DNA of 34,177 nucleotides. Source: Candidatus Iainarchaeum sp. (GTDB lineage: Archaea > B1Sed10-29 > WALL01). The DNA lies in the NCBI GenBank assembly GCA_021162685.1, contig JAGGYF010000042.1, positions 1 through 34,177 of the forward strand. Direction: 5' to 3'. Within the stretch, counting starts at the first letter, position 1. Each line of letters begins with the position of its first letter. The notes under the pieces were generated by a model. The model was not told where the DNA came from. It did no database searches and was given only the letters and a program-made list of their open reading frames with translations. The translations under genes were made by a program, and so were the position numbers. Below are positions 9,609 through 20,976 of the stretch, in pieces.

Positions 9609-10550
9609 CTAAACAACCTTAGCTCCATCAGCAAGTTTATAAGGAGTAGGAGATATCCTGTATTCTTCAAAAGCTAAAATAACGTCCTCTCTGTCTTTAG
9701 AGCGACATGCAACCACAATTTGACTACCCCCTCCCATGGTATAGTATGCATCAACGCCGCTTGTTCGGAGGTCTGTTACAATATCACATACTCGTTTTAC
9801 CTCTTCATTTCTTATGTCTATTCCTTGGCTCAAAAGAAGAGCATATGCTTCATCTATGTCTTCTTGTGCAACCCTAAATGCCCCCATAAAATCCTTTTTT
9901 ATTATCCTTCTCTCAATTTTATGGCATCTTTTATTGCAGTTGCTTACTCTCTCTTCAAACTGTGGTGAGGCAAGCATTGCTCTATGTATCTTTTCTGACT
10001 CAATCCTAGCCTTTTCAAATGAAAAACCAAACAAGGATACACCTACCAATTCTTTTGGATTTAAAAGTTGTTTCCCTCCTACTTCTGGATATTGCGAAAC
10101 ATCTATCTTGCTTATCCCGCCCAACAAACTTCGTGGGGATGAAGCAGACGCATTGATAATTATAGACACCTTCTCATTAATTGTCAGATTTAATTCAAAA
10201 AGATCGTCCAGTGCCTGTATAAGTGCAGCAGCCCCAGATGCAGAACTCCCACTTTTTATGTTATAGTTTCTAGATTGTATACGAACTCCAGAGTTACCAA
10301 CAATTTTCAATACAGTGTGCACTATACGCAACATTGGTTTTGCCTTTTCCCCACTTATCTCACTATCATTAACATAAAACTTGGTTCCGGTCTTTGAAAG
10401 TGTGGCCTCTGTTACTGTTTTCATATTCTCATCCAAGGTAGTAACTGCCATACCTATTGTATTGTGGTAAGGCGATCTATCGCCCCTTAACCCAGCCAAA
10501 AATATTAGGGGTACTGCAGGATATGCTTCAGAAACTGCTTTTGACTTCAT
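9609..10550 (-). CDS. GHMP-fold mevalonate-pathway enzyme, paralogue B (possible bisphosphomevalonate decarboxylase)
   Basis: The 313-residue protein belongs to the diphosphomevalonate decarboxylase (MDD)/mevalonate-3-kinase branch of the GHMP superfamily. Motifs: AYPAVPLIFLAGLRGDR at the N-terminus, nucleotide loop NIKSGSSASGAAAL, SPRSLLGGISKIDV, and C-terminal YYTMGGGSQIVV. By hand alignment the Lys of the MDD IKYWGK motif is Phe, and the catalytic Asp of the DAGPN motif is not conserved, so a canonical MDD reaction is unlikely. It is paralogous to the protein encoded at 11377-12384 and overlaps the kinase gene by 4 bp. In Thermoplasma two such paralogues act as mevalonate-3-kinase and bisphosphomevalonate decarboxylase. 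Which role this copy has is inferred, not shown. Confidence 0.75.
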   Translation of the reverse strand: MKSKAVSEAYPAVPLIFLAGLRGDRSPYHNTIGMAVTTLDENMKTVTEATLSKTGTKFYVNDSEISGEKAKPMLRIVHTVLKIVGNSGVRIQSRNYNIKSGSSASGAAALIQALDDLFELNLTINEKVSIIINASASSPRSLLGGISKIDVSQYPEVGGKQLLNPKELVGVSLFGFSFEKARIESEKIHRAMLASPQFEERVSNCNKRCHKIERRIIKKDFMGAFRVAQEDIDEAYALLLSQGIDIRNEEVKRVCDIVTDLRTSGVDAYYTMGGGSQIVVACRSKDREDVILAFEEYRISPTPYKLADGAKVV

Positions 10551-11368
10551 TTTTCTCCCACCAGCTTGGCTACCCTATCCATTATAACATCAAGAGCCTG
10601 TTCAAGTGTTTGGTGGAAATCCTCATTTTTTATTATGGGTATATCCCACTCTTTTGCTTTTTCCAATAATCTATCCTGCATTATCCTGTATTTATCAAGT
10701 TGGTTTATAAGTCGTTGAGGGTCGCTCTTTATGTGCGCAAATTCGTTTCTGGATAGGATCCTCTCCTTGTGCTTTTCTATATCGTCTATGTGCAACACCA
10801 TTGGTATAATATTCCTTTTTTTCAATATGTCACTCTCAAAAGTATGAGGCAAGAAATGGAGATATTCAATAACCATATTTTCCCCATCGCGTACACACCT
10901 CTCCATGAGTTTACCCATACATTTGTTCATAATTCGCGATTGTTCCTCATATCCTTTTATGATTGAGTCTTTTGTGGGTTTATCGCTAAAATACTGCCAT
11001 GTATTATACACACTTGTAAATAGAACAGGATGTTCCTCCTTTTTAAGAATCCCACGCAGAAATTCACGAAGAGCATCTCCTCCCATCATCACCCTTATTC
11101 CTAAACTTTTCGCGATTTCTGATGCAAGTGTTGTTTTGCCAGTTCCTGGTAACCCAGCAACAACTATTACCAACGGCTCTTTCAGTTCCCCTGAAATTGT
11201 TTTTTCTAGATATTTTCTCCATATCTTATATCTCCTAACATACTGCGGCCCAAACCTCCCTAACTCCTTCACTATTTTTTCGTGGGGTTCGCCAATAAGA
11301 TGTTTTATCCTTTCAATTGGCAGTCCAGATGCCCTTACTGCCTCTTTTGTTATATCTATGCCTGGCAT
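10547..11368 (-). CDS. P-loop kinase, candidate mevalonate-3-phosphate 5-kinase
   Basis: The 273-residue protein has a Walker A GLPGTGKT (72-79) in IVVAGLPGTGKTTLASEIAKSLG. A small-molecule-kinase core follows (MMGGDALREFLRG, then ENMVIEYLHFLPH, VLHIDDIEKHKERILSR). About 65 helical residues precede the P-loop, as in 2-phosphoglycerate kinase-like proteins. It sits in the middle of an operon between two MDD-superfamily genes, 8 bp after the first and overlapping the second by 4 bp (ATGA). In the Thermoplasma mevalonate route a P-loop kinase converts mevalonate 3-phosphate to the 3,5-bisphosphate. The context makes that the leading hypothesis; 2-phosphoglycerate kinase is the alternative. Confidence 0.75.
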   Translation of the reverse strand: MPGIDITKEAVRASGLPIERIKHLIGEPHEKIVKELGRFGPQYVRRYKIWRKYLEKTISGELKEPLVIVVAGLPGTGKTTLASEIAKSLGIRVMMGGDALREFLRGILKKEEHPVLFTSVYNTWQYFSDKPTKDSIIKGYEEQSRIMNKCMGKLMERCVRDGENMVIEYLHFLPHTFESDILKKRNIIPMVLHIDDIEKHKERILSRNEFAHIKSDPQRLINQLDKYRIMQDRLLEKAKEWDIPIIKNEDFHQTLEQALDVIMDRVAKLVGEK

Positions 11369-11376
11369 ATGGTCAC

Positions 11377-12384
11377 CTATATCCTCCTGACAACGCGGGG
11401 TGAGGGCGCTACTTTACATTCCCTAAAGGAATAGTTGTTTCTCTCTAGGAAATTTCTTATGTGGTCGGCGTGGTCTTTGTGTACTAATATAGATATTTGA
11501 TTTCCACCCCCTGCTGTTGGTACTGCTATTACTCCTCTCTCCTTAGCAATCTTCTTCACATCTTCCCATAGCTCCCGCATTGGGCCTTTTCTTACAACTA
11601 ACCCTCTATCCTCCAATAACTCATGTGCATTTTCAACATCTTCAAGGATTAGGTCAAACATGCGTTTTATGTTCCCTTCTTTGAATGCCTTTTTGATTTC
11701 TAACACCCTCCTTGGTGTTTCCCTCATCCTTATCTTATAATCGGGATGTTTTACTATTTCTTGATGGATCTCATCCGCAGTTATCCTTGTCTTGAACAGA
11801 GGAGATTCATTTTTATATTTTGGTTCTCCTTCCGGTGCATTGAATGGAACAAGAAAAATACGTATGTCCTTTAAATCTTCATGTGATGCAACAGGTATGC
11901 CCCTCACTTCAGGATAGTTATCCACATTTGTTTCACTCAACCCACCTAATAAACTTCTTTGAACAGACTCGGAACCCATCTTCCCATACTTTATCTTTTC
12001 TTCCTTGCTCATGTTTAACCCAAATAGCTCATCAATAGCAGTAACAAGAGCAGCAACACCAGAGTCAGATGAACCGCTTTTTATGTTATGGTTTACAGAT
12101 TCAATTCTAACACCAGACCTTATGCCTTTTTCTGAGAGTATCCTCTTAACCATATTTTTTATATCTTCGCCACGTTTTCCACTGATTTCTTTCCCATTTA
12201 CAAACAGATGAATGCCCTCTTCTTCAGGTAATTGCTTGGCCTTTGTAACTGTCTTCATATCCTCTTCGAGGGTAGTGATTGCCAACCCCATGGAATTGAG
12301 CCTTGGTGCCCTATCCTCTCGTATTCCCCCCAAAAACACAACAGGTATAGTTGGGAACGCTTCTACCTCAACTTCGTTGTACAT
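11377..12384 (-). CDS. GHMP-fold enzyme, paralogue A (mevalonate-3-kinase-like)
   Basis: The first gene of the operon encodes 335 residues. AFPTIPVVFLGGI, HLFVNGKEIS, IKSGSSDSGVAALV, SESVQRSLLGGLS and PTAGGGNQISI match, by eye and from memory, the order and wording of conserved blocks in Thermoplasma mevalonate-3-kinase (AYPTIGVVLLGGI, SGSSDAGA, SESAGRSLFGGL, VTGGSN). The MDD catalytic Lys and Asp are absent, as in that kinase. It probably phosphorylates the 3-hydroxyl of mevalonate without decarboxylation. The promoter is TATA-like TTTATAAA at 12413-12422, shared with speD, and a GGGGG-containing Shine-Dalgarno precedes ATG 12384. Confidence 0.8.
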   Translation of the reverse strand: MYNEVEVEAFPTIPVVFLGGIREDRAPRLNSMGLAITTLEEDMKTVTKAKQLPEEEGIHLFVNGKEISGKRGEDIKNMVKRILSEKGIRSGVRIESVNHNIKSGSSDSGVAALVTAIDELFGLNMSKEEKIKYGKMGSESVQRSLLGGLSETNVDNYPEVRGIPVASHEDLKDIRIFLVPFNAPEGEPKYKNESPLFKTRITADEIHQEIVKHPDYKIRMRETPRRVLEIKKAFKEGNIKRMFDLILEDVENAHELLEDRGLVVRKGPMRELWEDVKKIAKERGVIAVPTAGGGNQISILVHKDHADHIRNFLERNNYSFRECKVAPSPRVVRRI

Positions 12385-12422: not shown

Positions 12423-12512
12423 GATTTTAAATAAAAACTTTACACCTATTTTTGCAGATAAATAGGTCTGGAGGTGAAGTCATGGAAACAGAAGCTACAG
12501 GAGGGGAGGGCG

Positions 12513-12851
12513 ATGGCAATCGGCGTCCACATACTTGCAGAGTTCTACGAGTGCAATCCAGACCTACTGGCTACGGTGGATCCTGTTAGAGAGATTCTTG
12601 AGAGCACTGTAGAAGAGGCAAAGCTGAGTAAACTCCATTCGCACTATCATCAGTTTGAGCCATACGGAGTTACAGGTTTTGTTTTACTCGCAGAATCTCA
12701 TATCAGTATACACACCTGGCCAGAGCACGGGTATTGCGCAGTAGATGTTTTCACATGCGGAGAAGAAGGAGACGCCGAACTTGCCTATAAGCTCCTTAAA
12801 GAGAAACTTAAACCAGGGAGAGTTAATAGAGAGAAAAAGGTAAGAGGATGA
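12513..12851 (+). CDS. speD: S-adenosylmethionine decarboxylase proenzyme
   Basis: The 112-residue pyruvoyl-enzyme precursor self-cleaves at the Glu-Ser bond in LAES-HISIHTWPE (E61/S62), leaving pyruvoyl on the alpha chain. H67 and C82 (DVFTCG) are the usual processing and proton-donor residues. Product: decarboxylated AdoMet for spermidine-type polyamines. Some archaeal homologues decarboxylate arginine instead, which cannot be excluded. ATG 12513 is preferred because MAIGVHILAEFYEC aligns with the start of bacterial class 1B enzymes and GGAGGGG precedes it. An in-frame GTG at 12474 would add 13 residues. A separate strong Shine-Dalgarno serves an out-of-frame ATG at 12482. The 3' end overlaps the protease gene by 4 bp. 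Confidence 0.92.
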   Translation: MAIGVHILAEFYECNPDLLATVDPVREILESTVEEAKLSKLHSHYHQFEPYGVTGFVLLAESHISIHTWPEHGYCAVDVFTCGEEGDAELAYKLLKEKLKPGRVNREKKVRG

Positions 12852-13210
12852 GAACAGTAGGCCTTATAGAGCCAGTAGTTGTAGTAGGCAAGAAAAGGAT
12901 AAAGGTACTTGGTAAGTTTGACACTGGAGCATTCAGAACAAGTATTGATGAAAAAGTCGCAAAGAAGGCAGGGTTCAGAGCGGTTGGAAAAGTGAAAACG
13001 AAAAGCGCATTATCCAAAGGAAGGAGAAGAAAATTAGTAAAAGCAAAGATACAGATAGGTAACAAAATATTTGATGTTGAGGCAAGTGTAAGCAAGAGAG
13101 AGCATTCTATTGCAAAAGTGCTTATTGGTAGGGACATACTCTTCAAGAACTTTGTTGTTGATGTTTCAAAAAGACATTCAAGTCCAAAAGAAAGGGACTT
13201 TAAGATTTAG
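12848..13210 (+). CDS. RimB-like retropepsin-fold protease (PF05618)
   Basis: The 120-residue protein contains the aspartic-protease-like motif KFDTGAFRTSI (D25-T26-G27) and the later VLIGRDILFKNFVVDV segment. Both are typical of the ATP-dependent zinc protease/RimB family, whose members are single-lobed and act as dimers. In bacteria RimB-type proteins trim poly-glutamate added by RimK. Here a RimK-like ligase gene lies convergently next door with an 11-bp overlap. The gene is translationally coupled to speD through an ATGA overlap. The substrate is unknown. Confidence 0.85.
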   Translation: MRTVGLIEPVVVVGKKRIKVLGKFDTGAFRTSIDEKVAKKAGFRAVGKVKTKSALSKGRRRKLVKAKIQIGNKIFDVEASVSKREHSIAKVLIGRDILFKNFVVDVSKRHSSPKERDFKI

Positions 13211-14078
13211 CGCGCTCATAGATAAATTTCATTACAGTGTCATAAAGGTCTAATTTTGCAACCGTGCTTATGCCCTTAAGGCTCGGTCCATCGTTGATCT
13301 CAATCAGCACTGGTCCTCTCTCACTTGGTATAATATCTACGCCACATACTTCCATACCTATGGTGCTTGCTGCCTTTATCGCAATTTCTTCTTCTTCTGG
13401 TGTTGGTTTTAATGGTTCTGGTTTCCCACCTATTGTTATATTCGTTCTGAATTCCCCTTCTTTTACTGCCTTTCTCTTCATAGCAGCTGCAACTTGTTCC
13501 CCAACGACGAATAGTCTGTGGTCTTCACCAGGGTTTTTTATAAATTCTTCAACAGTAACAATTTGTTTTAATCTTGACATTGCATCTATGATGGGAGCAA
13601 AATCGCTTTGTGATGAAACCAACATGACACCCTTTCCTCCCATACCTCCTAAAAGTTTCACTACTACTGGAAATTCAAAATCTTTAACTACATCTTCAAC
13701 AACCTTCGGAGAGGTAACTAAAACAGCTTTTGGTGTTGGTAGTCCTGCTTCTGACATTACCTTTAATGTGTAAAATTTGTTTTTGGCTATGGTTATTGCG
13801 TCTGCCTGCACAGGGGAGTAAACCCCAGAATCAGCGAGCATGTCCATAATGATTGGAGCATAATCTATATCAGGAGAGGATGAACGAGGGTATGCTGCAT
13901 CAAACTCACATAGGTTGTAGTTTTTGTAGACTACTCTATTGTTTCCTTTATCTACTACTGCTCTTATCTCTGGGAATGGGGCTTGTACGCATTCTTTAAA
14001 GTATTTTTTTCCAGCATCTATTATCTTCTGGTTCACTTCCTTGTATGTTCTTGAACCTGAAAGTAGAACAAATCTCAT
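13200..14078 (-). CDS. RimK-type ATP-grasp ligase
   Basis: The 292-residue ATP-grasp protein begins MRFVLLSGSRTYKEVNQ. The pre-ATP-grasp domain runs to about residue 95. The ATP-binding core has FPVVVKLLGGMGGKGVMLV, the VEEFI hinge and the Mg2+-binding VCGVDIIPSERGPVLIEINDGPSLKGI. This fits RimK/LysX/MptN-type ligases that add glutamate or another amino acid to a carboxyl group of a protein, LysW or a coenzyme. No LysW or coenzyme gene is nearby. The convergent RimB-like gene makes protein tail glutamylation and its reversal plausible. ATG 14078 overlaps the upstream stop as ATGA; GTG 14087 is an alternative. Confidence 0.85.
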   Translation of the reverse strand: MRFVLLSGSRTYKEVNQKIIDAGKKYFKECVQAPFPEIRAVVDKGNNRVVYKNYNLCEFDAAYPRSSSPDIDYAPIIMDMLADSGVYSPVQADAITIAKNKFYTLKVMSEAGLPTPKAVLVTSPKVVEDVVKDFEFPVVVKLLGGMGGKGVMLVSSQSDFAPIIDAMSRLKQIVTVEEFIKNPGEDHRLFVVGEQVAAAMKRKAVKEGEFRTNITIGGKPEPLKPTPEEEEIAIKAASTIGMEVCGVDIIPSERGPVLIEINDGPSLKGISTVAKLDLYDTVMKFIYERAKS

Positions 14079-15556
14079 GGCTTCCACAACCTTTCTATTC
14101 TTTCTGTTTCTGCTGCTCGGTATTCATCTAAAAACTCTCTTAGGTATTCTGGGAATACATCCTTCACGCGCTTTGATTCTCTGAATATCTGTTTCAATTT
14201 TCTTTCTAGTCCCTTGCTAATCTTTTTGTAGTGGATGGGGTCTGAGTAGTATAATTTATTCTTAATACGCCAGTAGGCTTTTGTTCCACGTGGTGCGTAT
14301 ACTACATAACCTCTCTCTTCTCCTTCAAATGGGCCCATTGCTCTTTCCATGTCCTTGTAGTTTACCAGATAAACACCGCCCGTTTCTTTATTTGGGTCTA
14401 TGATAAGCAATTCGTCACCCTCCACACCCACGCACAATACAGCATGTTTTTGGTCCCTCTTTACTCCTGGGAAGAGTGCAGCTTTGTAAAAGTTCAGTAC
14501 AACAAGTCCACCCTCAGAGAGCCATGCCCTAACCTCATCTCTGAGATTTATAATCTCTTTGTATGGAACAAAAATACCTGCGACATTGCCCTTTGTTAAC
14601 TTATCTACTGCCTTTATTGCATTGGATACTGTTGTTCCACCAGGAACTTTTGTTTTTGCCTCTTTTGCAATTGTCTTTTGTCCGCCTTCTATGTGGAATC
14701 CGAACAGGTCTAAGATCATGTTAAGAACTGCCGGAACGCAATACGATTTTTCTTGGGCAACATAATGCCTGCGCATTGATTCCATTGTTTTGATGTCAAA
14801 TCTTGACTTTTTTATTCGCACTTCTTTTTCTACGATCTTTGCATTTGGTATGGAGATGTAATATCCTCTGCCCGTGTCTATGATTACAGACGTTGATGAT
14901 ATGTCTATAACCTCCCCATCTGCATCATCAACAAAGATACGCTGCCCAAGCTTTACAAGTTTTGAGCTTTTTATGTAGAAACCAGCAAGCCAGTTCCTCG
15001 TAATGTCCTTTGATGCAAAGAAGATAAGGGCAACCACAAGGAATGCAAACCCATAACTTATTGCTGACAAAGAACTTTCAACAACACTCTTTGGTATTCC
15101 GAGTTGAGCAAGTGATATCTGTATTACAATGATGTATAAAAAGAGACGAAGGCCCATGAGTACGAAGTTTACAACTGGCTCATCTATGCCCATACCTTTG
15201 AGGTAAATCTGGAATTTCATTCCCCTGAATGTTACTGTTAAGATTTCCATGATGAGATTAACAATCATTGTTCCGAGGATTAGTATAAGCAACGTTGATA
15301 GGAGTATGGGAGCATAATTGCTCAAACTCGCAAGTAGTCTTTCTGTTATACCTGGGTCTAAAAAGAAAACCGCGATGAAAATTGTTGCTACGAATAGTAG
15401 GTATTCAATGGTTTTGACGAGTATCTTTGCCATGCCTGGCTTTTTTGTTATGGGCGAGCAAGCAATGGAAAATAATCGGACAATTGTAACTCCAACTAAT
15501 AGGATTAAGACTACTTCAAATGCCTTCAGTATTGCTGGAGGAACATACTCTATCAT
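14075..15556 (-). CDS. MscS-like membrane channel fused to C39-like cysteine peptidase domain
   Basis: The 493-residue protein has five predicted membrane helices (about 10-28, 43-66, 82-107, 128-150, 160-182). The last leads into a ring-like MscS beta domain, with KLGQRIFVDDADGEVIDIS, VIIDTG and YYISIPNAKIV at about 202-248. A papain-like C39 domain then follows at about 260-420: Q268 and C273 in AQEKSYCVPAVLNM, H371 in QKHAVLCVG and D387 in LLIIDPN, the complete Gln/Cys/His/Asp set. The C-terminus is basic and helical. Canonical MscS proteins lack a protease domain, so cytoplasmic proteolysis gated by membrane tension is possible. The RimK-like gene overlaps its stop (ATGA). TATA-like CTTTTAAACC is at about 15592-15583. 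Confidence 0.85.
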   Translation of the reverse strand: MIEYVPPAILKAFEVVLILLVGVTIVRLFSIACSPITKKPGMAKILVKTIEYLLFVATIFIAVFFLDPGITERLLASLSNYAPILLSTLLILILGTMIVNLIMEILTVTFRGMKFQIYLKGMGIDEPVVNFVLMGLRLFLYIIVIQISLAQLGIPKSVVESSLSAISYGFAFLVVALIFFASKDITRNWLAGFYIKSSKLVKLGQRIFVDDADGEVIDISSTSVIIDTGRGYYISIPNAKIVEKEVRIKKSRFDIKTMESMRRHYVAQEKSYCVPAVLNMILDLFGFHIEGGQKTIAKEAKTKVPGGTTVSNAIKAVDKLTKGNVAGIFVPYKEIINLRDEVRAWLSEGGLVVLNFYKAALFPGVKRDQKHAVLCVGVEGDELLIIDPNKETGGVYLVNYKDMERAMGPFEGEERGYVVYAPRGTKAYWRIKNKLYYSDPIHYKKISKGLERKLKQIFRESKRVKDVFPEYLREFLDEYRAAETERIERLWKP

Positions 15557-16362: not shown

Positions 16363-18999
16363 ATGGATGATGCAGTATACTGGCATGCAGTTGATATCAA
16401 GACAATATTCAAGTTGTTGAAGACATCAGAGAAGGGCTTAACTTCTGAAGAGGTAAAGAGGAGAAGAAAGGAGTATGGAGAGAATGAGATAACACTCAAG
16501 GAGAATATATCTGCGCTTAAACTCTTTCTTAATCAATTCTCCAGCCCCCTTGTAATAACACTAATTATTGCTGCTGCAGTTCTTATTATCGTATCATTGA
16601 TGTCAAATGATTCGTCGCAATTAATTGATGCCTCGCTGATTATCTTTATTGTTCTTGCCAATAGTGTGTTTGGTTTTTTCCAGGATTACAAAGCAGAAAA
16701 GAGTATGCTAGCGCTTAGGAAGATGACAAAAGTGAACGTTATTGTCGTTAGGGATGGAGTAGAACAAATTGTAGATGCAAAAGAACTTGTCCCTGGTGAC
16801 ATTATTATTGTAGAAGAGGGTTCAAAGATTCCTGCTGATGCCAGAATTATAGGAGTAGAGGACGCATATGTTAATGAGTCTGTGTTAACTGGGGAGAGTA
16901 CGAAGGTGAGAAAGGAGCCATGCGTTCTTCCCATGAATACGCCACTTCATGCTAGAAAAAACATGTTGTTCATGACAACAACAGTTACAATGGGAAGTGC
17001 AACCGCTGTCGTTGTTGGAACAGGAATAAATACAGAAGTAGGAAGGATTGCAAAGCAGATACACGAGACAGAACAGGAATCAACAATTTTCCAGGTTCAG
17101 TTGGAATCACTAAGTAAGAGTATTGGGAGTTTCATTTTAGGAATTATTGTATTTATTGCTCTTGTGCAGGCATTTGTGCACGCGTTTGACCTAAAAACAA
17201 TCTTTTTAACATCGGTTGCATTAGCAGTAGCAGCAATACCAGAAGGACTTCCTGCAGTTGTTACTCTCTCGCTTGCTTATGGAACATCAAAGATGGTAAA
17301 AAAGAATGCACTTGTAAGGAGACTTGCAATCATTGAGAGTTTAGGTTCTGTTGATGTCATATGTACAGATAAAACTGGGACTTTAACGGAAAACAAGATG
17401 ACTGTGAAAAAGATATATTTTGACAATAAGATGTATGATGTTACTGGTTCTGGCCTTGATGAACAAGGAGAGTTTATTTCTGATGGAAAAATAAGAAAAA
17501 GGGAGTTGTACCCTATTTTGCTTACTGGTGTATTGTGTAACAATGCACACGTAGGAAAGAAATATTTTGGAGAACCATTAGAGGTTGCACTTCTTATTGC
17601 AGGAAAAAAGGCAGGGATAGATAAAAAAGAGGTTGAGAAGAAGTATAAACACATAAAGGAGATCCCATTCAATTCAGAAAGAAAACGCATGACAGTTATC
17701 TATTTAATTGATGGAAAGAAGATGGCATTTATGAAGGGTGCACCCGAGGTTGTGCTTCAACATTGTACATACGTATATGAAAACGGAAAAAATAGAAAAC
17801 TTAGTAAAAAGAGAAAAAAAGAGCTTTTGAGTGTTTCACGAGAACTGGAAGCGCAGGGCTTTTATGTATTGGGATTTGCACAAAAAGAACTCAACAGGCA
17901 ATCGGATGCAGAATCAAACATGGTATTCTTAGGCTTCCAGGGCATGATTGATCCTCCGAGGCCAGAGGTAAAGGAAGCTATTGCGGCATGTGAAACAGCA
18001 GGTATCAGAGTTATAATGATTACAGGAGATAGCCCCCTTACTGCAAAGAACATAGCAAAACAGGTTGGTATTGGTACTGAGGTGATGATAGGGGAAGAGG
18101 TTGATAAAATAACAGATAAGGAACTGGAGAATGCTGTTGAAACTATTGATATCTTTGCCAGAGTTTCACCACATCACAAAGTAAGAATACTCAACGCGCT
18201 TAGGGCAAATGAACATGTTATTGCTATGACTGGAGATGGGGTGAATGACGCTCCTGCTCTGAAGAGCGCAGATGTTGGAATTGCTATGGGGGTACGTGGA
18301 ACAGATGTAGCGAGAGAAGCCAGCGATATGATCCTACTAGATGATAACTTTGCGACAATTGCAGAGGCAATAAAAGAAGGGAGAACAATATACGGAAACA
18401 TAAAAAAATTCATAAACTATTTGCTAACATCAAACTTTGCAGAAGTATTTGCGATATTTATCGCATCTCTCTTTGCTTACCTTCCAGTAACAGCAGTTCA
18501 GCTTTTATGGATAAACTTTGTTACAGATGGATTCCCCGCTGTTGCATTAGGAGCAGACCCACCTCCTCCCGATATTATGAAAAGAAAACCGAAGAAGAAG
18601 GACGAACACATCATTGACAGAAGGATGTGGTACTTGATTGCTTTGATCGGCGTAGAGAATACAATCCTCATTTTGAGTGTGTTCTTTATTGGATTGGGGA
18701 TGGGTGGTCTAAAGGTTGCCCAAACAATGGCATTCACTGGTTTTGTACTGTATGAATTTGTGAGAATAGTCGTGATAAGGACACAAGAAAAGTTGGGCAT
18801 GCTATCAAATCACTATTTAACATTGGCAATGATTATCTCAATAGGACTTCAATTTGTTTTGTTGTATTCTCCACTGAATAAACTCTTTGGGGTTGTTCCA
18901 TTGGGCATAGAAAACTGGGCAGTTTTGATAACAGGTACAATTATAGGTTATGTTTCTGCTATATTCATAACGAGATGGGTGATGAGGATGACTGCATGA
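16363..18999 (+). CDS. P-type cation-transporting ATPase (P2, Ca2+-ATPase-like)
   Basis: The 878-residue protein has the complete P-type layout: N-terminal cation ATPase domain, actuator motif LTGES (176-180), PEGLP in helix M4 (293-297), phosphorylation motif DKTGTLT (D336), nucleotide-binding KGAPE, and the hinge MTGDGVNDAPALKSADVGIAMG. About ten membrane helices are present, with a C-terminal block of six. PEGLP with NFVTDGFPAVALG in M6 places it with P2A/P2-type calcium (or sodium/proton) pumps. Exact ion specificity cannot be assigned by eye. Length is typical. It may be co-transcribed with dCMP deaminase (13 bp gap). Confidence 0.92.
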   Translation: MDDAVYWHAVDIKTIFKLLKTSEKGLTSEEVKRRRKEYGENEITLKENISALKLFLNQFSSPLVITLIIAAAVLIIVSLMSNDSSQLIDASLIIFIVLANSVFGFFQDYKAEKSMLALRKMTKVNVIVVRDGVEQIVDAKELVPGDIIIVEEGSKIPADARIIGVEDAYVNESVLTGESTKVRKEPCVLPMNTPLHARKNMLFMTTTVTMGSATAVVVGTGINTEVGRIAKQIHETEQESTIFQVQLESLSKSIGSFILGIIVFIALVQAFVHAFDLKTIFLTSVALAVAAIPEGLPAVVTLSLAYGTSKMVKKNALVRRLAIIESLGSVDVICTDKTGTLTENKMTVKKIYFDNKMYDVTGSGLDEQGEFISDGKIRKRELYPILLTGVLCNNAHVGKKYFGEPLEVALLIAGKKAGIDKKEVEKKYKHIKEIPFNSERKRMTVIYLIDGKKMAFMKGAPEVVLQHCTYVYENGKNRKLSKKRKKELLSVSRELEAQGFYVLGFAQKELNRQSDAESNMVFLGFQGMIDPPRPEVKEAIAACETAGIRVIMITGDSPLTAKNIAKQVGIGTEVMIGEEVDKITDKELENAVETIDIFARVSPHHKVRILNALRANEHVIAMTGDGVNDAPALKSADVGIAMGVRGTDVAREASDMILLDDNFATIAEAIKEGRTIYGNIKKFINYLLTSNFAEVFAIFIASLFAYLPVTAVQLLWINFVTDGFPAVALGADPPPPDIMKRKPKKKDEHIIDRRMWYLIALIGVENTILILSVFFIGLGMGGLKVAQTMAFTGFVLYEFVRIVVIRTQEKLGMLSNHYLTLAMIISIGLQFVLLYSPLNKLFGVVPLGIENWAVLITGTIIGYVSAIFITRWVMRMTA

Positions 19000-19023
19000 T
19001 GAACTCAACATAAACTTTTATAA

Positions 19024-19185
19024 ATGTTCTTTCCCAGATCTTCCACTCATTTTTCAGAAATAATTGAAGCAAAGAGCCTAGAAGAAGCAATAGAAAAGAC
19101 AGATATGAACCTAGAATTAAATGTCGTGATACCTCTGAATAATGAGAACATTGAACATCTTAGGAAGTTGATTATTCAGGAATAG
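19024..19185 (+). CDS. Small ORF (53 aa), possibly a remnant
   Basis: The frame ATG 19024 to TAG 19183-19185 encodes 53 residues with balanced composition (for example EIIEAKSLEEAIEKTDMNLE and VVIPLNNENIEHLRKLIIQE), unlike random AT-rich translation. A TATA-like TTTATAAATG overlaps its ATG, so the intact start may be elsewhere (for example an internal ATG at 19105) or the 5' end may be lost. It lies between the P-type ATPase and the antiporter and has no recognised family. Either a small gene or the 3' relic of a larger one. Confidence 0.35.
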   Translation: MFFPRSSTHFSEIIEAKSLEEAIEKTDMNLELNVVIPLNNENIEHLRKLIIQE

Positions 19186-19233
19186 ATGATTGCATAAGCA
19201 ATGTTTTTAAATCAATGGTTCGTTATGTTTTCT

Positions 19234-20976
19234 ATGGAGCAGGTAGCAGAACTCTTTTTGGAATTGGGCTTGATTCTTGGTACGGCAAGTGTTCTTGCAT
19301 ATATAATGAGAAGGTTCAAGCAGCCAACTATCCTTTCATATATACTCACGGGCGTTATATTTGGCCCAAGTGTGCTGAATGTAATTGGCGCTCATGAATT
19401 TATAAAGGTATTCTCTGAGTTTGGTGTTGCTTTCCTGTTGTTTACTGTTGGTCTGCAGTTGAGTATAAGGGACCTAAAGGAGGTTGGAAAAGTAGCGTTT
19501 CTTACAGGTATAGGCCAGGTTTTGTTCACATTTACAATTGCATTCCTGGGTTTAAACGTACTTGGTTTTGATTGGAAAGCTGCTGTGTACATCGCAATTG
19601 CGCTTTCTTTCAGTAGCACAATTATTGTTGTGAAACTTTTATCAGAAAAGAACGATATTAGCTCTTTATATGGAAAGATTGCAATTGGTTTTCTGCTTGT
19701 CCAGGACTTTATTGCTATATTTGCACTTATCTTTTTGACAGGTGTTGCGCAACAGCAACCAGTTGGCGTGATTATTATAAACACAATCGTAAAGACCGTC
19801 TTTTTGATTGGAGCAATTGCTTTGTTTACGAAGTATATCCTGCACAGGTTGTTTGATAGGATTGCAAGGTGGCACGAACTTCTTTTCATATCAAGTTTGG
19901 GGCTTTGTTTTCTTCTTGCTTATATCACGCATTATTTCGGGTTATCATTGGAAATAGGTTCTTTCCTTGCTGGTGTTTCCCTTGCTACATTAAAATATAA
20001 TATAGACATTGTTGGAAGGATAAAATCTGTCAGAGATTTTTTTATCATCATATTTTTTGTGCTGCTCGGTCTTCAATTGCATATCTCTCTTTCTGATATC
20101 CCACTTGTTATTATCCTCTCACTTTTTGTGCTGATTGGCAATCCATTTATTGTGATGAGCATCATGAGTTTAATGGGGTATAGTACAAGAACAAGTTTAT
20201 TTGCAGGATTTACTGTATCTCAGATAAGCGAATTCTCTCTTATTGTCGCAGCAATGGGTCTTTCTTTAGGGCATATAAGCGAACCAACTGTATCAATCAT
20301 AACCATGGTTGCGCTCGTAACAATAACTGTATCGGTTTACTTTATCCAGTTTAATGAGTATATATATGGGAGAATAGGGAAATTTTTGAAATTTTTGGAG
20401 CGTAAGAAACTCGTTGAACATAGGTCAAGATTACCAAAAGAACTGAGGAATCATGTTGTTCTCTTTGGACATCATCGGATGGGGCACACCATATCAAAAA
20501 AATTGGATGAGTTGGGATACACAATAGTTATTGTGGATTTTGATCCGGATGTCATATCATCCCTACTGAAAAAGGGAAAGAACTGCATGTATGGTGATAT
20601 GAGCGACCCAGAAGTTTTAGAAAAGGTTAATCTGAAGGATGCAAAACTCATTATCTCTACTGTTCCATCAAAAAACGATAATCTTGTTTTACTCCATAAT
20701 GTAAAAGAAGTAGGAAGCAAGGCAATCATTATTGTGACAGCAGAGCAGTTGTTGGACGCCATTGAATTATATAGAGCAGGCGCAGACTACGTGATTATGC
20801 CTCATTTCATAGGAGGAGAGCATGTAAGCTTATTATTGAATAAATTGGTTAAGAATAAAAAATGGAGAGAGGCAGCAAAACAAAAACACATCCTACAATT
20901 GTTGGAACATAGGAGGCGGGGACACGAATTTAACGTCAAAAATATTCAATGGGATCTTCTATCCCTGCTTCCCTGA
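19234..20976 (+). CDS. KefB-type cation/proton antiporter (CPA2) with RCK/TrkA-N domain
   Basis: With start ATG 19234 the protein has 580 residues. About twelve membrane helices form a Na+/H+ exchanger domain (motifs [53 protein letters not shown]). A cytoplasmic Rossmann-like TrkA-N domain follows ([39 protein letters not shown]). The usual GxGxxG reads GHHRMG, so nucleotide binding may be altered. A longer frame begins at 19201, but TTTTTAAAT at 19203-19211 looks like the TATA box, placing a leaderless start near 19234. The 3' end overlaps queC by 41 bp convergently. It probably exchanges K+ or Na+ for H+. Confidence 0.9.

Follow-up and report, generated by a model that had tools for sequence, protein, structure and literature searches.

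The window (the whole stretch of DNA analysed, 34,177 nucleotides, from a Diapherotrites genome of 1.1 Mb) contains a single 493-aa open reading frame that fills positions 14075–15556 on the minus strand and joins an MscS-like membrane module to a predicted C39-like papain-fold domain. It is followed by a gene for a RimK-type ligase, on which a gene for a RimB-like retropepsin converges from the plus strand. The plus strand across 14075–15556 has stops throughout and no gene is readable there, which rules out a gene in that orientation. The features are as follows.

12848–13210, plus strand: RimB-like retropepsin (clan AA, D25TG), from PF05618, gag-asp_proteas and the invariant D25-T26-G27
13200–14078, minus strand: RimK-type alpha-L-glutamate ligase (ATP-grasp), from TIGR00768, PF08443 and the PDB RimK
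14075–15556, minus strand: MscS-C39 fusion ORF, 493 aa (P0001), with 46 homologues of the same architecture
15008–15556, minus strand: five membrane helices, residues 1–183, predicted N-out/C-in (hydropathy, positive-inside rule, AlphaFold2)
14819–15007, minus strand: MscS beta domain, residues 184–246 (PF00924, E 1.1e-10; Foldseek match to MscS, E 1.7e-7)
14261–14785, minus strand: C39-like papain-fold domain, residues 258–432, predicted cytoplasmic (AlphaFold2, Foldseek, Pfam over members)
14738–14755, minus strand: codons Q268 to C273 (Q-x4-C; QCHD in 36/46 homologues)
14444–14446, minus strand: H371 codon (homologue alignment, catalytic-set counts)
14396–14398, minus strand: D387 codon (the Asp is in every row of the 30- and 42-row alignments and in all 46 of the catalytic-set counts)
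14078–14260, minus strand: helical C-terminal tail, residues 433–493, conserved (identity, W491), ending R-L-W-K-P

Both partner genes are of the types named by the sequence-only reading, which had a RimK-type ATP-grasp ligase as the next gene and a RimB-like protease opposing it. The rimK start is most likely the ATG at 14078, which overlaps the fusion stop codon in an ATGA (CCATGAGA). The ligase exceeds the TIGR00768 cut-off (173 bits against 143), matches PF08443 at E 8e-42 and the solved RimK 7qyr in the PDB at E 9e-40, and keeps the ATP-grasp loop and the metal ligands; by this class assignment it would add glutamate. The convergent retropepsin is above the cut-off for PF05618 (E 1.7e-8, 34.9 bits against 27) and also matches gag-asp_proteas (E 7e-7), and D25-T26-G27 is invariant in five archaeal members. 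It does not reach the NCBIfam RimB or RloA3 equivalog cut-offs, and we therefore call it RimB-like rather than RimB. Judged by eye it has no evident signal peptide, the protein beginning right at the catalytic domain.

A gene for SpeD (S-adenosylmethionine decarboxylase) overlaps the retropepsin gene by ATGA (window 12474–13210), so that the two are probably co-translated in this genome; gene lists of the relatives do not show this overlap. Upstream of the fusion (16363–20976) are genes for a P-type cation ATPase and for a Kef-like Na+/H+ exchanger that contains TrkA_N. At 9609–12384, a relative of mevalonate-3-phosphate 5-kinase and 2-phosphoglycerate kinase, a P-loop kinase, sits between two paralogues of 313 and 335 aa that resemble mevalonate-3-kinase/decarboxylase. 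This is a possible Thermoplasma-type mevalonate branch in this genome; the matches stay below NCBIfam cut-offs.

Architecture and predicted fold of the fusion protein

The order of parts corresponds to that described from the sequence alone. Hydropathy and AlphaFold2 agree on five N-terminal membrane helices (7–32, 42–66, 68–112, 126–151 and 156–198 in the model), and the Pfam domain search places MS_channel_2nd at residues 184–246 above its curated cut-off, with the MscS beta domain matched in 36 of 42 members of the family. The fifth helix aligns with MscS TM3, and the MscS TM3b motif is kept as N188xxAG192 at the start of the beta domain. Relative to MscS-family channels, with which it shares this motif and the beta domain, the fusion differs in having extra N-terminal helices, a Gly/Ala-poor TM3a, and a C39-like domain that replaces the C-terminal vestibule. 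Positive charges sit on the beta-domain side, which by hydropathy and the positive-inside rule argues for a cytoplasmic C-terminus, and the catalytic C39-like part would thus lie on the cytoplasmic side of the membrane.

All four residues of the proposed Gln268/Cys273/His371/Asp387 arrangement are present, and 36 of 46 homologues keep the complete set. The C39 assignment by Pfam holds for most homologues and not for the 493-aa protein taken alone, in which residues 265–389 match Peptidase_C39_2 at E 0.002 (19.1 bits against a cut-off of 24) and a second C39-like model at E 0.009, also under its cut-off. Peptidase_C39_2 matches 31 of 42 homologues, the best at E 2.5e-12, and the Pfam C39 model matches 27 of 42; we use the term C39-like to reflect this difference. 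The papain-like fold expected after residue 260 is predicted by AlphaFold2 with 42 homologues (mean pLDDT 81.3 for the whole protein and ~90 for the C39 part); residues around 250–260 form a weak hinge. Given the low pTM (0.45), the model does not fix how the two halves are arranged relative to each other. In Foldseek searches against the PDB the N-terminal part finds MscS structures, and the C-terminal part finds papain-fold enzymes, with TM-scores by target length of 0.77–0.79 for the ComA peptidase domain (PEP), 0.68 for PCAT1, and up to 0.64 for Alr0975; the pseudomurein endoisopeptidase PeiR is also among the matches. Taken together, the Foldseek, profile and Pfam member matches make 'C39-like papain domain' the right name, and the protein as modelled combines a papain fold with an MscS fold.

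The best solved relatives by sequence profile are the entries for Alr0975 (E 3e-6), a primitive phytochelatin synthase (PDB 2BTW/2BU3) that aligns with the fusion at Cys, His and Asp within the papain fold and is among its best papain structure matches. By analogy the fusion could hydrolyse or transpeptidate gamma- or alpha-glutamyl peptides, its substrate being a small thiol or a compound resembling a cofactor that RimK builds, as Alr0975 acts on glutathione, and the relationship of the ligase to glutathione synthetase (GSH-S_ATP, E 3e-16) is in keeping with this. Pfam Phytochelatin matches 12 of 42 homologues and not the 493-aa protein itself, whereas Peptidase_C39_2 matches more members and does so better, and both ComA and PCAT1 exceed Alr0975 in TM-score by target length. 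Alr0975 also differs in being soluble, with <20% identity to the fusion in the fold alignment, and a retropepsin as partner suggests that the substrate is a protein or polyglutamate. We consider a small-molecule hydrolase of this type quite improbable.

Distribution and gene linkage across archaea

The sequence-only reading had suggested looking for the same fusion in related genomes, and it is present as one ORF in 46 genomes; the 46 aligned homologues span several lineages of archaea with genomes of 0.5–1.5 Mb, Diapherotrites among them. These genomes are independent assemblies, some of them complete one-contig genomes. An assembly or annotation error joining two genes is ruled out by this recurrence, the likelihood of such an artefact being negligible, and the fusion is a real and widespread protein family. 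A profile of its C39 part, run against 394 sampled archaeal genomes, identified the domain in 28 further genomes; 26 of these 28 matches are strong, and lie in open frames of about 500–540 aa or at contig ends. No match to the fusion was found in the plasmid collection. The literature searched contains nothing relevant on MscS fused or linked to C39, papain or RimK, and within it the family is apparently undescribed so far, and the composition of its membrane subunit unprecedented.

Within the 19-genome phylum that includes the window genome, full-length orthologues are present in three further genomes of the same order (59–66% identity). All four have the same arrangement, with rimK starting inside the fusion end by the same overlap (ATGA, taking the internal ATG as start as was done for the window) and the convergent retropepsin coming next. 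The retropepsin is thus found in 4/4 fusion genomes and in 1/15 others of the phylum (Fisher p 0.0013, with relatedness ignored); that one genome has the ligase and retropepsin as an overlapping pair and no fusion. At the thresholds used, the fusion, ligase and retropepsin are all absent from the other 14 genomes.

In a second group, a phylum that appears nanohaloarchaea-like as judged by its acidic proteins, the C39 part is present in 25 of 28 genomes. Wherever enough downstream sequence could be read, a degenerate RimK and then an intact RimK come after the fusion, the first ATP-grasp gene lacking both the Gly-rich loop and the metal ligands; this pairing of a dead paralogue directly before an active ligase is seen in loci L055–L065, L071–L080 and L177–L183. 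Searches of 21 such genomes gave no retropepsin. The fusion operon is downstream of eS6 and eIF2gamma in most loci, and many have TrkH/TrkA genes (K+ transport) upstream on the other strand. Ion-homeostasis genes thus recur near the fusion, given the ATPase and exchanger in the window.

The third group is a large phylum in which full-length fusions are present in 11 of 279 genomes, and all 11 contain a retropepsin, compared with 128 of the 268 others (Fisher p 0.0004, again with relatedness ignored, the chief weakness of both tests). Most of the loci read in this group have no ligase adjoining the fusion, and the retropepsin is located elsewhere in the genome, beside RimK in three of the four cases looked at; in one locus (L172) fusion, RimK and retropepsin are side by side. 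Taken together, the gene linkage of the family is strong. Short stand-alone C39-like proteins (~150–225 aa) are also encoded in this large nanoarchaeal-type phylum (L094–L109), and match the C39 part of the fusion at E 1e-7 to 1e-14.

Conservation and loss of the catalytic residues

Identity among the Diapherotrites orthologues is lowest in the membrane part (44%) and rises through the beta domain (56%) to the C39 domain (78%) and the tail (79%), and W491 is present in 28/28 alignment rows that reach it. Selection thus acts mainly on the cytoplasmic part. The Gly/Ala-rich pore-lining TM3a of an MscS-type channel is absent, the G+A+S fraction of TM3a averaging 0.32 over the family (0.40 in the 493-aa protein) against 0.53 in three ordinary MscS proteins of the same phylum; with the weak conservation of the membrane part, a working pore should not be assumed.

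The full QCHD set is present in 36 of 46 fusion sequences, and most homologues have C-G-P-A at the Q-x4-C site. The other ten have lost the Cys, and most of these also the Gln or His, with Asp387 retained. A tree of 30 sequences gives an ancestor with an intact triad and at least two losses, and both the fusion and the ligases are kept in lineages after the loss. Members with an intact triad are probably peptidases. Cleavage cannot be universal, given the ten sequences without the triad, and since fusion and ligases outlast Gln, Cys and His in at least two lineages, these must have a non-proteolytic function, which argues for binding or scaffolding as one of the fusion's roles.

Such losses would also be expected of an osmotic channel that is ligand-gated or modified, in which the C39-like domain would serve chiefly as a sensor, gating an MscS-type pore when it binds RimK-made poly-glutamate in free form or a glutamyl peptide, with cleavage secondary or lost. 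Cyclic-nucleotide domains gate an MscS-type pore in the bCNG channels, which offer a parallel, and the retained TM3b motif and the TrkH/TrkA genes at many group-2 loci are consistent with an osmotic role. TM3a without the packing of ordinary MscS points the other way, however, as does a C39 part far better conserved than the membrane part, and by these comparisons we find a channel function of this type unlikely on balance.

The C39 domains of ABC exporters such as ComA and PCAT1, which cleave double-glycine leaders, resemble that of the fusion in their papain fold, Q-C-H-D residues, cytoplasmic location and attachment to a membrane protein. Here the domain is not N-terminal to an ABC exporter but C-terminal to an MscS-like module, with an extra conserved tail and no ATPase or exporter, and no ABC gene is beside the fusion in the window. 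In an export role by analogy, a small peptide modified by the RimK-like ligases would lose its leader to the C39-like domain and leave through the MscS-like pore; C39 peptidases with ABC transporters often neighbour graspetide ATP-grasp genes (PMC8939145), and ATP-grasp genes adjoin the fusion. The ligase is a RimK, however, and RimK is kept apart from the graspetide enzymes (PMC8939145). There is also no ATPase to energise export, the triad is lost in 10/46 fusions, and among ORFs of at least 60 aa there is no conserved small ORF in or beside the unit, in which fusion and RimK overlap directly. Graspetide or RiPP export is given low weight because no precursor gene was seen among these ORFs, and we judge it very unlikely.

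A candidate membrane-anchored tagging module

The three component types of rloABC from Pseudomonas aeruginosa (Lormand et al. 2025, PMC12239564), a membrane protein with a papain/transglutaminase-type domain, an ATP-grasp protein and a retropepsin, all recur in the archaeal unit, and for this reason we propose a membrane-anchored RimK/RimB-like tagging module. The fusion would be its membrane subunit, either as a peptidase or as a scaffold, and we regard this as its likeliest role, with the case for it evenly balanced. A function shared by the fusion with RimK and the retropepsin is suggested by their linkage. An MscS-derived membrane ring, presumably oligomeric, would carry the C39-like domain on its cytoplasmic side, where MscS normally has its C-terminal vestibule. 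The RimK-type ligase would put glutamate or a similar amino acid on a target and the cytosolic retropepsin would take it off, with the papain domain binding the tagged peptide or a nearby target, and in triad-intact members (including the 493-aa protein) probably cleaving it. Tagging would thereby be localised to the membrane and regulated by it, plausibly via osmotic state.

The products of rloABC, of which the membrane-anchored one is an inactive transglutaminase and the others are a retropepsin and an ATP-grasp protein, act in one hypoosmotic-tolerance pathway, in which loss of RloB or RloC rescues loss of the proteases (PMC12239564). A catalytically dead domain is a further likeness, always in RloB and in 10/46 of the fusions, and the hypoosmotic setting belongs to Rlo. 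There is no evidence for homology of the membrane subunits: RloB has a transglutaminase-like domain on seven helices that faces the periplasm, whereas the archaeal subunit is MscS-C39. RloA is secreted, unlike the archaeal retropepsin with no evident signal peptide; the archaeal ligase is a true RimK; and all of the archaeal catalytic domains are predicted to be cytoplasmic. The fusion is thus not a member of an rlo operon, having no inactive transglutaminase on seven helices and no secreted-type retropepsin. RimB removes the glutamates added by RimK (Little et al. 2025, PMC11957791), and in rimBK of Pseudomonas the RimK ligase and RimB retropepsin are likewise encoded together and both cytosolic, but there is no membrane subunit (PMC11957791). 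The archaeal unit is a RimK/retropepsin kind of system with a different membrane subunit.

Control of the tagging module by membrane tension is attractive because of the MscS origin of the membrane part, and is speculative, as is the tension-dependent proteolysis or peptide processing suggested by the sequence-only reading. The fullest version, an archaeal counterpart of Rlo built of other parts, in which an MscS-derived ring and papain peptidase edit or read RimK tags under tension or osmolarity control and dead versions serve as scaffolds with a dead RimK paralogue, strikes us as rather doubtful. Should the link be functional, an ATP-grasp ligase and a retropepsin would have been combined with a papain-type domain anchored in the membrane in two domains of life, and comparing the two would make the mechanism of Rlo and of hypoosmotic tolerance testable. 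For the fusion, which almost every genome of one halophile-like archaeal phylum (group 2) encodes, the link also offers a first indication of function.

Ribosomal protein bS6 (RpsF) is bacterial. At many group-2 loci the gene two positions upstream of the fusion encodes an eS6 with SEEEEE at its end (L063:3556–3936 and similar). A Glu-rich eS6 tail near RimK may be coincidence, and as the eS6–eIF2gamma gene pair is a common archaeal order, eS6 is simply noted as a possible RimK target. Some group-2 genomes also have a second, shorter MscS-like gene (285–307 aa) near the fusion operon (L056:9335–10225, L074:9348–10271, L180 and L182).
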